Assembly: GCA_019637315.1 (NCBI GenBank) | Contig: JAHBVU010000022.1 | Span: 1-51,610 of the forward strand | Source of the DNA: Gemmatimonadales bacterium | Lineage (GTDB): Bacteria > Gemmatimonadota > Gemmatimonadetes > Gemmatimonadales > GWC2-71-9 | Reading direction: 5' to 3' | Length of the DNA stretch: 51,610 nt | Part shown: one piece after another, positions 32,596 to 44,753 of the stretch | Numbering within the stretch: the stretch's first letter is position 1 | Layout: the number at the start of each line of letters is the position of its first letter | Translations under genes and position numbers: made by a program | Notes under the pieces: model-generated | The model's database searches: none | Seen by the model: the letters and a program-made list of their open reading frames with translations, nothing else | Told to the model about the DNA's origin: nothing

Positions 32596-32811
32596 AGGCG
32601 TTCCACGTCCCTGATAGTGCGCCGACCGAGTTGCTGGGCCGATCGGGGCTGCGGCGCGTCACTCTGGAGAACCCCCGACCCCCTAAGTATATCAAGCAAT
32701 GGATGCGCCACTAGGGACAGAGGTCGCAGCCTGGGCAGCGGTGATTCGGCGTCGGCGGGCTGTTCGGGGCCCTTCGATGGGGGGGAGCTTCGCTCCAGTC
32801 GTCTAGTGGAT

Positions 32812-32910
32812 ATGAACGCCCTTCGCACCCGGCTTGGTGCCGTCATCATTCTCGTCGTCGGACTCGTCGTTGGCCTTGGCCAATGGGGAGCGGACGCGAG
32901 CTTGTGCTAA
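32812..32910 (+). CDS. Candidate branched-chain amino acid leader peptide of the ilv operon
   Basis: A 32-codon frame ending in TAA, 119 bases before ilvD. From codon 11 to 22 it reads VIILVVGLVVGL, a dense run of Val, Ile and Leu, the end products of the ilv pathway. E. coli IlvL is also 32 residues with a similar run. Three of its six Leu codons are CTT. No Shine-Dalgarno is visible. Alternative hairpins follow directly. It probably has no protein function; ribosome pausing on it would control transcription into ilvD. A tiny membrane protein cannot be fully excluded. Confidence 0.75.
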   Translation: MNALRTRLGAVIILVVGLVVGLGQWGADASLC

Positions 32911-32999
32911 CGTAGCGAGCCAGTCCCCTCCCCGGTTCTCGGGAGGGGTGAGCAGCCGAAGCGGCCCCTCTCGATGATCCGGAGGGGCCGTTCGCGTTT
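32885..32999 (+). promoter_or_regulatory. Candidate transcription attenuator of the ilv operon
   Basis: Hand folding shows: segment 1 CCCCTCCC (32925-32932) pairing with segment 2 GGGAGGGG (32941-32948); segment 3 CGGCCCCTC (32962-32970) pairing with segment 4 GAGGGGCCG (32982-32990), then TTCGCGTTT; and segments 2 and 3 pairing instead over about 9 bp. GGGGAG (32885-32890) inside the leader frame can also pair with CTCCCC in segment 1. The T-run is poor, so segment 3:4 may be a weak terminator. A palindrome GAGCAGCTGCTC (33004-33015) lies just before the ilvD Shine-Dalgarno and could act on translation. Confidence 0.65.
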
Positions 33000-39153: not shown

Positions 39154-39708
39154 TCAATCGGAGCGGAGGGGGCCTAGCATTGCACGCAGCGTCTTGAGCC
39201 CGCGGCTGATCTGGTTCTCGACCGTTTTGGCGCTCAGGTCCAGACGCGAGGCGATCTCCGCGTAGCTGAGTCCGTCGCGCCAGCGGAGCAGCATGATCTC
39301 CCGACGCCGCTCCGGCAGCTGATCGAGAGCCTGCATCAGCTGGGTACCACGATCCGGATTGGGGGAATCGCTCACGCTTCCAGCGATCCGTTCGACCTCG
39401 GCGCGTTCCCTTTCCATGACCTCTCGTTCGAGCCAGCGATACTCGAGCCGCAGCCGCTTTTGGCGGTCGAGGGCACGATTGCGGACGGCTCTGGCCAGAT
39501 AGCCGCCCAGATGGTCGCGAATCTCGATGGTTTCGCGATCGCGCCAAAGTCGAAAGAACACGTCCTGGACCACCTCGGCCGCCGTATCGGGGCACCCGAC
39601 CACACGGTGGGCCACCGCGCGCAGGCGGGTGTCGTGGCTTCGCACGATCTCGTCGAAGGCGGTCCGGTCAGAGTCCTGTAAACGCTGTAACAAGCTGTCC
39701 TCACTCAC
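39154..39708 (-). CDS. ECF-type RNA polymerase sigma factor
   Basis: A 184-residue sigma factor with region 2 (EVVQDVFFRLWRDR ... GYLARAVRNRALDRQKR) and region 4 (LPERRREIMLLRWRDGLSYAEIASRLDLSAKTVENQISRG). The GTG start overlaps the leuB stop by 4 bases, so it is translated from the leu mRNA. ECF sigmas usually sit beside an anti-sigma gene; none is recognisable here, either side. A link between leucine status and a sigma factor regulon is possible because any attenuation would also lower this gene. Confidence 0.92.
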   Translation of the reverse strand: MSEDSLLQRLQDSDRTAFDEIVRSHDTRLRAVAHRVVGCPDTAAEVVQDVFFRLWRDRETIEIRDHLGGYLARAVRNRALDRQKRLRLEYRWLEREVMERERAEVERIAGSVSDSPNPDRGTQLMQALDQLPERRREIMLLRWRDGLSYAEIASRLDLSAKTVENQISRGLKTLRAMLGPLRSD

Positions 39709-41395: not shown

Positions 41396-42846
41396 GCGGG
41401 CCTCCCGTCGATGAGGGTGCGCGGATCGGTCACCCGCCCGGTGACGGCGGCGGCCGCTGCGGTGGCAGGGCTGGCGAGGAAGGTCCGGCTGCCACGGCCC
41501 TGACGGCCCTCGAAGTTTCGGTTGCTGGTGCTGACGGCGTACTGCCCGGGCTCCAGCATGTCGCCGTTCATGGCGATGCACATCGAGCAGCCGGGCTCCC
41601 GCCACTCGGCGCCGGCGCCGAGGAAGGTGTGATGGAGCCCTTCGGCCTCTGCGGCACGTTTTACTTCCTGCGAACCTGGTACGACCAGCATCCGAACGCC
41701 GTCGGCAACCGAGCGCCCGCGCACCAGGCGGGCGGCATCGCGCAGGTCGTCGAGACGCGAGTTGGTGCAGCTGCCGACGAAAACGACATCGACCGGATGG
41801 CCGATCAGCGGTCGGCCTGGCTCGAGAGCCATGTAGCGGAGCGCCTGGGACACTGCCTGCCGGTCGGCCTGATTCGGCAGTTGCGCGGGCTCGGGAATCG
41901 GCCGGTCGATCGGCATGGCCATGGCCGGCGTCGTGCCGTATGTGATCATGGGGGCAAGACGGCTCGCCTCGAGCGTCACCGACCGGTCCCAGCGCGCACC
42001 CTCGTCGCTGGGCAGATCGCGCCACCGCGTCAGCGCGGCTTCCCAGGCGGCGCCTTGGGGCGCTTCCGGTCGTCCGCTCAGGTACTCGAAGGTGACATCA
42101 TCCGGGGCGACGAGCCCCGCACGGGCGCCGGCTTCGATCGACATGTTACAGAGCGTCAGCCGCTGGTCGATCGTCAGGGCCTCGACGGCCCGACCCCGGT
42201 ACTCGAAGACGTGGCCGGCGCCACCGGCGACGCCGACCTGGGCAATCACGGCAAGGATCACGTCTTTCGCGGACACCCCGTTCGGGAGGGTGCCGTCGAT
42301 ACGGACCTCCATGAAACGCGGCTTGCGCTGGAGCAGGCACTGGGTGGCCAGCACGTGTGACACTTCAGAGGTGCCGATGCCGAACGCGAGCGCACCAAGG
42401 GCGCCGTGCGTACTGGTGTGACTGTCGCCGCAGACGATGGTCATGCCCGGCTGCGTCAGGCCAAGCTCGGGGCCAATGACGTGAACGATGCCCTGATAGT
42501 CGTGGCCCTGTCCGTAGAGCCGGATGCCATACTCGCGGCAGTTGGCGCTGAGGCGGTCGAGCTGTGCGCGGGCAGCGGCGTCGGTAATCGGGAGCCTGCC
42601 CTCGTGGGTTCCGGGCAGGGTCGGGATCGAGTGGTCCGCGGTGGCGATGGTGCGGTCGGGGCGTCGGACGTGCAAGCCGCGGGCGGCCAGCGCGGCAAAC
42701 GCCTGGGGCGAGGTGACTTCGTGGATCAAGTGCAGATCCGCATACAGCACGGCCGGCGTGTCGCTCTGCTCCGGGCTGACGACATGCTCGTCCCAGATCT
42801 TCTCGACCAGGGTACGGGGCCTCTTCGAAGACGGCTTAGCGCCCAT
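41392..42846 (-). CDS. leuC: 3-isopropylmalate dehydratase large subunit
   Basis: A 484-residue aconitase-type subunit. The 4Fe-4S Cys residues lie in VGSCTNSR and [11 protein letters not shown]. The ATG at 42846 has GGAGGT eight bases upstream, and it begins within the last codons of leuA (11-base overlap). [16 protein letters not shown] is also conserved. A longer frame upstream is not protein-like. Standard housekeeping function with LeuD. Confidence 0.96.
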
Positions 42847-44041
42847 GGGTGGCCACCTCCCCGGCAGGCTCGATGCTGGCGGCAGCAAGCAGGTCGCGCA
42901 GGTCGCGGTCCGAGACGGTGCGCTTGGTGTCGGCGACCGCCTTGAAGCGGGGAAAGACCCCGTCGAGCGTCTGTTCGTCGAGGACGATTCCCAGGCGTTC
43001 GAGCCTCGCCCTGAGGGCGTGGCGGCCCGAGTGCTTACCAAGTACGATCGACTCACGGTCGAACCCAACGCTTTCGCGTGTCATGATTTCATAGGTTGCC
43101 CGGTGGCGGAGCACGCCGGCCTGGTGAATCCCTGACTGGTGCGCAAAAGCGTTCCGCCCGACGACTGCCTTGTTGGGCGGCACCTGAATCCGGGTGCGTC
43201 GTTCGACCAGTCGTGAGGCCCGGACCAGTTCGCGCGCCTCGATTCTGGTGTCGAGGCGGAGACGATCCTGCCGCGTTCGCAGGGCCATGACGACCTCCTC
43301 GAGCGCGGCATTGCCGGCCCGCTCTCCGATGCCGTTGATGGTACACTCGGCTTGTCGTGCCCCGGCTCGGATGCCGGCGATGGTGTTGGCCACCGCGAGC
43401 CCCAAGTCATCGTGACAATGCACTGAGACCGTGATGCCCGCCGAGGCGTAGCGCGCCACCACGGCACCGATCAGGTTGCCGTACTCGTCTGGTGTCGCGT
43501 ACCCGACGGTGTCAGGGATGTTGAGGATCGTTGCTCCTGCGGTGACCGCACAGTCGAGCACGGCGAACATGAACTCCCGGTCGGATCGGGTGGCATCCTC
43601 GGGTGAGAACTGGACCTCCGGCACCTGATTGCGGGCGTAGCGCACAATCGAGGCGACTCGTTCGAGTGCGGCGGATCGGGTTATGCGGAGCTTGTGCTCG
43701 AGATGGATGTCGGAGGTTGCCAGGAAGGTGTGGATTCTCGGCCGAGCCGCGGGATGCAGGGCCGAGGCTGCGCGGTCGACATCGGATTCCATGGCGCGGG
43801 CCATACCGCACACGGTCGGCCCCTCGGACCCGAAAGAACTCGCGATCGTCCTGATGGCCTGCCACTCCGCCTCGGAGGCGGCCGGGAAGCCGGCTTCGAC
43901 GATGTCCACACCCAAGCGAGCCAGTTGGCGCGCAACAGCGATCTTGGACTCGGGCTGCAGGGTGCAACCCGGTGCCTGTTCGCCATCGCGCAGCGTGGTA
44001 TCGAAGATCTGGACGACCGGGACCGGAGGCTCAGTCGACAT
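42836..44041 (-). CDS. leuA: 2-isopropylmalate synthase, short form without regulatory domain
   Basis: A 401-residue enzyme with the [12 protein letters not shown] catalytic start, the [16 protein letters not shown] metal site and [13 protein letters not shown] near the end of the barrel. Normal LeuA is over 500 residues because of a C-terminal LeuA dimer/allosteric domain that binds leucine; here the protein ends soon after the subdomain with [14 protein letters not shown]. So feedback inhibition in the usual way should be absent. It overlaps the upstream ACT-domain gene by 11 bases. Homocitrate or citramalate synthase activity is an alternative, but the operon says leucine. Confidence 0.92.
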
Positions 44042-44318
44042 GATCGTCTCCCGCGCCGTCGGCCTGCCAATGGTACGGAGCTGACCCCGGGTCCGAGCGC
44101 ATCGCACCGTCCCGCTCCAGGCGTCCGCGGACAGCCTCGGCAAACCGATCGACGGCCGCGGTCGCGGCGTTAGGCGCGAAGGTCGCCGTCAGGCGGGCGG
44201 GGCGGCCCGGCGTGAGGGTCAGGTGCTCGAGTCGAAGCGGGCTCTCGCCAAGGAAATCGGCGGTCCGCCGGAGGGCGGCGGGCAACTCTTCCACGAGCAG
44301 ATTGACGGTGTAGCGCAT
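44031..44318 (-). CDS. Small ACT-domain protein heading the leu operon
   Basis: A 95-residue protein. MRYTVNLLVEELPAALRRTADFL followed by LRLEHLTLTPGRPARLTATF follows the beta-alpha-beta pattern of the ACT domain of acetolactate synthase small subunits, which begin MRYTLSVLVE in many bacteria. The start at 44318 has AAAAGGG upstream. The gene overlaps leuA by 11 bases. It could be a second acetolactate synthase subunit, or a regulator of the LeuA that lacks its own allosteric domain. The tail ([10 protein letters not shown]) is acidic and not conserved-looking. Confidence 0.78.
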   Translation of the reverse strand: MRYTVNLLVEELPAALRRTADFLGESPLRLEHLTLTPGRPARLTATFAPNAATAAVDRFAEAVRGRLERDGAMRSDPGSAPYHWQADGAGDDHVD

Positions 44319-44332
44319 GACCCTTTTCAGCC

Positions 44333-44453
44333 TCACGACGCGAGCAATGAAAAAAGGCCCCTTCCATCGGAAGGAGCCTCGCGTCGTGTTGCGTTGCCCC
44401 TGTCCGGATCATCTCGGAGGGGCAGGGGTTTGATGGTGCGCTAAACCCGGCCC
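44333..44453 (-). promoter_or_regulatory. Transcription attenuator of the leu operon
   Basis: Hand folding on the minus strand gives: segment 1 TGCCCCT (44424-44418) with segment 2 AGGGGCA (44401-44395); terminator 3:4, AGGCTCCTTCC with GGAAGGGGCCT, followed by TTTTTT (44379-44350); and antiterminator 2:3, GGA-C-AGGGGC with GCTCCTTCC over 9 bp with a bulged C. A protector hairpin GGGTTT/AAACCC (44448-44443 and 44431-44426), extended by GGGC/GCCC, uses the end of the leader frame and part of segment 1. An 11-bp inverted repeat CACGACGCGAG/CTCGCGTCGTG surrounds the terminator. Confidence 0.85.
44350..44379 (-). terminator. Rho-independent terminator in the leu leader
   Basis: An 11-bp stem with one T-G wobble and a 3-base loop, followed by six T on the minus strand, located 31 bases before the first leu gene. 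A terminator in front of the genes, behind a Leu-rich leader frame, is the mark of attenuation. Confidence 0.92.
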
Positions 44454-44551
44454 GTCCCGATAACGACGAGAAGAATGACCGCAAGGAGAAGCCCTGCGGC
44501 CAGTCCGACGACGCTAATAAGTCGGGGGGAGCGAGTAAGCGTGTTCACCAT
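44441..44551 (-). CDS. Leucine-rich leader peptide of the leu operon
   Basis: A 36-codon frame (ATG at 44551, TAG at 44443-44441). Codons 17-31 read LAAGLLLAVILLVVI, so leucine, valine and isoleucine dominate. Of eight Leu codons five are CTT, which looks rare in the GC-rich genes around; slow codons are usual in attenuator leaders. Alternative hairpins and a terminator follow. No Shine-Dalgarno is seen and a TATACT hexamer ends 3 bases before the ATG, so the mRNA may be leaderless. The peptide would have no function apart from being translated. Confidence 0.85.
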   Translation of the reverse strand: MVNTLTRSPRLISVVGLAAGLLLAVILLVVIGTGRV

Positions 44552-44554
44552 ATC

Positions 44555-44560
44555 AGTATA
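44555..44560 (-). promoter_or_regulatory. Candidate -10 element of the leu leader
   Basis: TATACT on the minus strand, five of six matches to TATAAT, separated from the leader ATG by only GAT. Transcription would begin at or within the start codon. No good -35 hexamer was found 16-18 bases upstream. The remaining 190 bases to the cupin gene hold nothing I recognise. Confidence 0.6.
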
Positions 44561-44753
44561 CTAGACGATCGAACCGGCCGGCTACCCCCACTCGCTCCCT
44601 GCCGGCGGTCTCGGGCGGTCGCGCTGGGGTCGGTTGGGGCCCCGACGGAGCCCGGCAGTGGGGCTGTCGTCACACGGAGAGCGGGGAGATCTTCTACTGT
44701 GCCGCGTGGCCGATTGTGGCTCCGGGGCGACGCTCCCAAACCAAGGACCCGCT

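Follow-up and report, generated by a model that had tools for sequence, protein, structure and literature searches.

Attenuators of the leu, ilvGMEDA and his operons are known in Escherichia coli and Salmonella. Ribosome-mediated attenuation has been described mainly in Proteobacteria and Actinobacteria, and in some Firmicutes (PMC2965389, PMC1262725, PMC5794164). In the ilvBNC operon of Corynebacterium glutamicum, transcription starts one nucleotide from the start codon of a leader encoding a 15-residue peptide rich in branched-chain amino acids (BCAA), and three hairpins act as anti-antiterminator, antiterminator and terminator (PMC11857589). In actinobacteria, the LEU element forms a pseudoknot with a base stem that pairs the Leu codons with the Shine-Dalgarno site of leuA (PMC1262725). 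We found no relevant report of attenuation, attenuators or cis-regulatory leaders in the open-access literature on Gemmatimonadota, a phylum that has been little studied.

The DNA analyzed here (the window) is a stretch of 51,610 nucleotides from a Gemmatimonadales bacterium (contig JAHBVU010000022.1). The region ahead of its leu operon is very probably a ribosome-mediated transcription attenuator. The basis for this reading is the sequences, the alternative pairings, the computed codon dependence, and the conservation of the layout in relatives. Like the LEU element, the region has a run of Leu codons upstream of leuA. It falls outside the definition of that element, as leuA is 399 nt away from the leader and a gene and an intrinsic terminator come between them. 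The leader ORF has the following features.

44441–44551, minus strand: leader peptide ORF of 36 codons, ATG at 44551 and TAG at 44443–44441
44548, minus strand: GTG, an alternative leaderless start of this ORF
44459–44491, minus strand: regulatory codons 21 to 31, CTT CTC CTT GCG GTC ATT CTT CTC GTC GTT ATC

The ORF encodes MVNTLTRSPRLISVVGLAAGLLLAVILLVVIGTGRV, which contains the run LLLAVILLVVI. The general attenuator mechanism calls for a small ORF in which codons for the pathway products form a run, as they do here. CTT accounts for five of the eight Leu codons (binomial p = 1e-4). This is unusual, since only 7.4% of the Leu codons are CTT across 12 genes in the window. Both the frame with its Leu/Val/Ile run and the recount of this rare codon bear out what the first-pass annotation had claimed. 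At least eight Leu, Ile or Val (L/I/V) in ten residues occur in 2 of the 616 small ORFs of the window, and both precede branched-chain operons. One is the leu leader. The other is located ahead of ilvD.

32812–32910, plus strand: twin leader peptide MNALRTRLGAVIILVVGLVVGLGQWGADASLC before ilvD
32925–32991, plus strand: B:C hairpin of the ilv leader and its terminator, the latter with a weak T tract

The twin sits on the plus strand of the same window, where ilvD-ilvB-ilvN-ilvC follows it. The two leaders share TCGTCTAGT...GATATG and GATGATCCGGA.

Downstream of the regulatory codons, five RNA segments and an outer repeat were identified in the leu leader.

44443–44461, minus strand: segment A, the last six codons of the ORF, ATCGGGACGGGCCGGGTTT, forming 16 bp with B
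44411–44431, minus strand: segment B, AAACCCCTGCCCCTCCGAGAT, partner of A or C
44395–44407, minus strand: segment C, CCGGACAGGGGCA, partner of B (anti-antiterminator) or D (antiterminator)
44369–44379, minus strand: segment D, 5′ arm of the terminator, partner of C or E
44350–44365, minus strand: segment E, 3′ arm of the terminator and T tract, 11-bp stem and six T
44334–44388, minus strand: 11-bp perfect inverted repeat in the sequence, CACGACGCGAG...CTCGCGTCGTG, around the terminator

The pairing energies are −21.6 kcal/mol for A:B, −20.3 for B:C, −17.6 for C:D and −23.2 for D:E. The terminator, AGGCTCCTTCC-GAT-GGAAGGGGCCT, has 11 bp and a T tract at 44355–44350, with 31 bases between the tract and the ATG of the first gene (44318). 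The antiterminator, GGA(C)AGGGGC paired with GGCTCCTTCC, has 9 bp and one bulged C. A terminator scan of the region found 2 sites, versus 0.2 in shuffled sequences. An intrinsic terminator is thereby located between the leader ORF and the first gene. All these figures for the antiterminator and the terminator agree with the first-pass annotation. Its description of the two as alternatives stands insofar as the helices are mutually exclusive, but the leader consists of five segments, A to E, and not of two alternative hairpins.

The inverted repeat would be able to form in the readthrough RNA only. Translational or Rho-dependent control has been discussed for some actinobacterial leaders. Were the same to apply here, the outer repeat near the ribosome-binding region would be the effector and the intrinsic terminator would be minor. 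With its right arm, the perfect repeat, which does surround the terminator, touches the region where the first gene starts. Yet the start codon of that gene is outside the repeat, the intrinsic terminator, with its six T, is strong, and a comparable repeat is not prominent in the ilv leaders of relatives. We consider this kind of control quite unlikely.

To compute the effect of the ribosome, the RNA was folded from the front edge of the ribosome through the end of D, with the ribosome on each codon and with E absent. The probability that C:D forms before E is 0.83–0.87 with the ribosome on codons 19–26, and about 0.05 with the ribosome at the stop codon. These ON codons hold Leu21 to Leu23, Val25 and Ile26, and the range moves by one codon between ribosome footprints of 12 and 15 nt. 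By computation, an antiterminator that is mutually exclusive with the terminator forms according to ribosome position, and the computations across the family point the same way. In two null schemes, the RNA between the L/I/V run and D was shuffled; none of 600 shuffles in either scheme reached such a codon-dependent switch. The single helices are less exceptional for the composition. A:B alone was equally good in 259 of 2000 shuffles, which is not exceptional for a G/C-rich sequence, and C:D alone in about 1%. It is thus the coupling that stands out. The same folding applied to the ilv twin gives OFF at codons 1–11, ON at codons 12–21 (IILVVGLVVG), and OFF from codon 22 to the stop. The ON window of the twin lands on L/I/V codons without any fitting.

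With E present, the equilibrium favors the terminator even when the ribosome is stalled, with D:E at 0.72–0.99 for most codons. Because the terminator wins at equilibrium in the stalled state, antitermination must be under kinetic control, in which C:D forms first and persists long enough.

From these results we infer transcription and translation of the leu leader, stalling, termination, and a response to leucine. RNA polymerase would start at the start codon of the leader or a few bases upstream, and the ribosome would trail it through the 36 codons. When charged tRNA-Leu (also tRNA-Val or tRNA-Ile) is scarce, the ribosome would stall at about codons 19–26 and leave A exposed. A would then pair with B, freeing C to pair with D before E is made. 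No terminator would form in time and the operon would be transcribed. When amino acids are sufficient, the ribosome at the stop codon would cover A, B would pair with C and D with E, and transcription would terminate at 44355–44350. The leu genes appear to be switched on only upon ribosome stalling for lack of leucine, and perhaps of valine or isoleucine. The twin device, with its Ile/Val/Leu run, would control ilvDBNC in parallel.

The nearest relatives of LeuA (60–65% identity) and IlvD (61–68%) belong to a second family within this order. Among the closest LeuA matches, those with named public records are Gemmatimonadaceae. True leuA was not found in five other genomes of the genus (84–97% completeness), and ilvD is 43–44% identical or absent in these genus-mates. 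This pattern points to patchy BCAA synthesis in the genus, with genes lost or transferred. As they do not have true leuA, the leu leader is without an ortholog and constitutes a single sequence.

Besides the two leaders of the window, about 22 L/I/V-rich leaders are located upstream of ilvD in Gemmatimonadaceae loci. Most of them have two hairpins and the five-segment layout, with differing sequences. When segments were paired with their own partners and with partners swapped between loci (15 representatives), A:B and C:D were stronger in their own combinations (p = 5e-5 and 1.5e-4, respectively), and so were B:C and D:E. A:D, a pairing outside the model, displayed no own-partner advantage (p = 0.37). 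The computed antiterminator forms at some ribosome positions in 19 of 23 five-segment leaders. Their ON codons are enriched for L/I/V, with 0 of 5000 circular shifts reaching the same level (7 of 5000 with 12 representatives). The four leaders in which no antiterminator was computed are L205, L209, L214 and L221; of these, L209 and L221 seemingly have their A segment past the stop codon. Five others (L216, L218–L220 and L228) are partly ON at the stop. The layout is conserved in the ilv twin and in the ilv leaders of relatives. Conservation of frame and hairpins in relatives, the check named in the first-pass annotation, accordingly holds for the ilv-leader layout and not for an orthologous leu leader. 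Its main claim, a leader peptide with a complete attenuator before leu, gains support from the position-dependent folding, the twin leader, and the architecture in relatives.

The data also bear on whether the ORF might simply be a gene for a small protein that spans the membrane once and has a terminator of its own, the run being a transmembrane helix and the operon promoter lying elsewhere. The leader peptide has a hydrophobic character and flanking charges, BCAA runs look much like hydrophobic ones, and the terminator sits behind the ORF. Nevertheless, the peptide sequences of relatives differ while the layout and pairings are kept, and the positions that are ON in the RNA model coincide with L/I/V codons. 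The rare CTT codons, and the position of both such ORFs of the window before BCAA operons, also speak against a membrane protein, which we regard as improbable.

Two further types of leu leader with terminator occur in the order, both with three segments (loci L090–L117 and L118–L145). In Gemmatimonadaceae the leu leader is shorter, e.g. MHRTAVLLLTSALGQLIIGRGLSCLGGSTE, and forms a three-segment attenuator 190–370 nt before leuA. Its nearly invariant Leu-Gly-Gly codons (TGGGAGG) pair with the 5′ arm of the terminator, CCCCTCCC. The third type, e.g. MPFALVLVLLLLVLLLSIPAQEGSAARAKTT, comes from the window's own family and precedes a different leuA by 67–95 nt; the 3′ end of the leader pairs with the arm GCCGCGGACC. 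The swap test did not discriminate for three-segment type A (p = 0.82), where it is uninformative because the paired bases are invariant; for type B it gave p = 0.013. The leu leader of the window resembles the ilv leaders of the order in its Leu/Val/Ile codon run and in its layout, and so is an ilv-style leader, in neither leu style of the relatives.

The operon controlled by the leader would include the following genes, and on the minus strand its order is a 95-aa ORF, leuA, leuC, leuD, leuB and an ECF-type sigma gene, with several starts and stops overlapping.

44031–44318, minus strand: first gene, 95-aa protein with a predicted ferredoxin-like fold, overlapping leuA
42836–44041, minus strand: leuA, 2-isopropylmalate synthase of 401 aa without the C-terminal LeuA_dimer regulatory (feedback) domain
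39154–39708, minus strand: ECF-type sigma gene, a candidate regulator, with its start overlapping the leuB stop

The first gene had been called an ACT-domain protein, a claim that did not hold up well. The protein has no Pfam or NCBIfam match, including to any ACT family profile. A single-sequence AlphaFold model predicts a beta-alpha-beta-beta-alpha, ferredoxin-like fold (mean pLDDT 69.5). Foldseek with this model returned ferredoxin-like folds, none of them reaching E ≤ 0.001. They include ACT domains (aspartokinase, acetohydroxyacid synthase) as well as ribosomal protein S6, and the ACT chains rank among, not above, the non-ACT matches. Going by the model, an ACT domain is possible. A search of 394 genomes of the class with this protein gave no convincing homologue, the best match being 36% over 73 residues (E 2e-6). 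The sequence QADG with a short tail ends otherwise dissimilar short ORFs before leuA, at 44031–44070 of the window and at other loci (L004, L043, L049, L118–L120, L126, L131 and L145). Direct BLAST of the first gene against the small ORF of L126 gave no alignment despite the common QADG tail. The tail may be a DNA or RNA element for leuA translation coupling and not a protein motif.

Sequences resembling promoters were found before both leaders.

44555–44560, minus strand: TATACT, −10-like sequence, 3 nt before the ATG
44562–44590, minus strand: TGGGGG-N17-CGTCTA, promoter-like and ECF-sigma-like, a lead only
32778–32805: matching promoter-like motif ahead of the ilv leader

A promoter scan found no sigma-70 promoter pair at the leu leader. 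Judging from the −10-like sequence, transcription of the leu leader would be expected to start at or near the start codon, so that the mRNA would be leaderless or nearly so. A start as far from the −10-like sequences as expected leaves no room for a Shine-Dalgarno site in either leader. The pattern TGGGGG-N16/17-CGTCTA occurs at 2 sites in the 3.9-Mb genome, one per leader; as it was chosen after seeing the sites, the motif evidence is suggestive only. By eye, no classical GGAAC-type ECF −35 is present before the leaders. In one relative (G134, locus L253) an ECF sigma gene lies within ilvDBNC-sigma-leuA-leuC, and TAGGGG-N16-CGTCTA is located just before the ilv leader. The motif has one match altogether in four other relatives, and it lies elsewhere. 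The sigma proteins of the window and G134 are 36–39% identical, no closer than many ECF paralogs. LeuA of G134 (429 aa) also appears short. It is possible, if rather doubtful, that the ECF sigma factor of the leu operon is a dedicated one and transcribes both BCAA leaders from TGGGGG-N16/17-CGTCTA, giving leaderless mRNAs. If true, BCAA synthesis would be under a private sigma factor and two parallel ribosome-sensing attenuators.

Other RNA regulators were also considered, namely a T-box, a riboswitch or an enterobacterial-type Leu_leader, such elements being established regulators of the same genes elsewhere. The leader of the window was matched by neither the Rfam Leu_leader covariance model nor the T-box model. 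Neither the leader nor any of 12 relatives has an Rfam match at the gathering threshold, and none of those families appears at E ≤ 5 in the region. A regulator of this sort is hardly credible here.

The order uses at least three unrelated-looking designs for one pathway, which no Rfam model catches and in which the pairings match locus by locus. Several designs with locus-matched pairings make the phylum suited to asking how attenuators arise and get exchanged. Concrete codons and helices are now available for mutation, and cultured Gemmatimonadaceae (e.g. Gemmatimonas) are possible test hosts.

The closest likeness within the order is to the five-segment ilvD leaders of Gemmatimonadaceae (L202–L228), which have the same A:B, B:C, C:D and D:E pairings and similar L/I/V peptides. 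Those leaders precede ilvD and not leu, and their peptide and RNA sequences differ. With C. glutamicum ilvBNC the region shares the three-hairpin logic, the BCAA leader peptide and the (here predicted) near-leaderless start. The two differ in length (36 codons versus a 15-residue peptide), in sequence, in phylum, and in the gene concerned, leuA here and ilvB there. The enterobacterial attenuators likewise combine a leader peptide rich in the end product, rare codons, exclusive helices and an intrinsic terminator, and the mixed Leu/Val/Ile run is as in enterobacterial ilvG leaders. The parallel in design to the enterobacterial leu attenuator, claimed earlier to come without likeness in sequence, holds on both counts, as no Rfam match exists and no likeness was seen. 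Unlike the enterobacterial leaders, that of the window lacks a Shine-Dalgarno site, its start codon being at the expected transcription start or beside it, and its A segment is made of the last codons themselves. The mechanism is classical; its sequences, its phylum and its predicted near-leaderless start set the leader of the window apart from the enterobacterial case.
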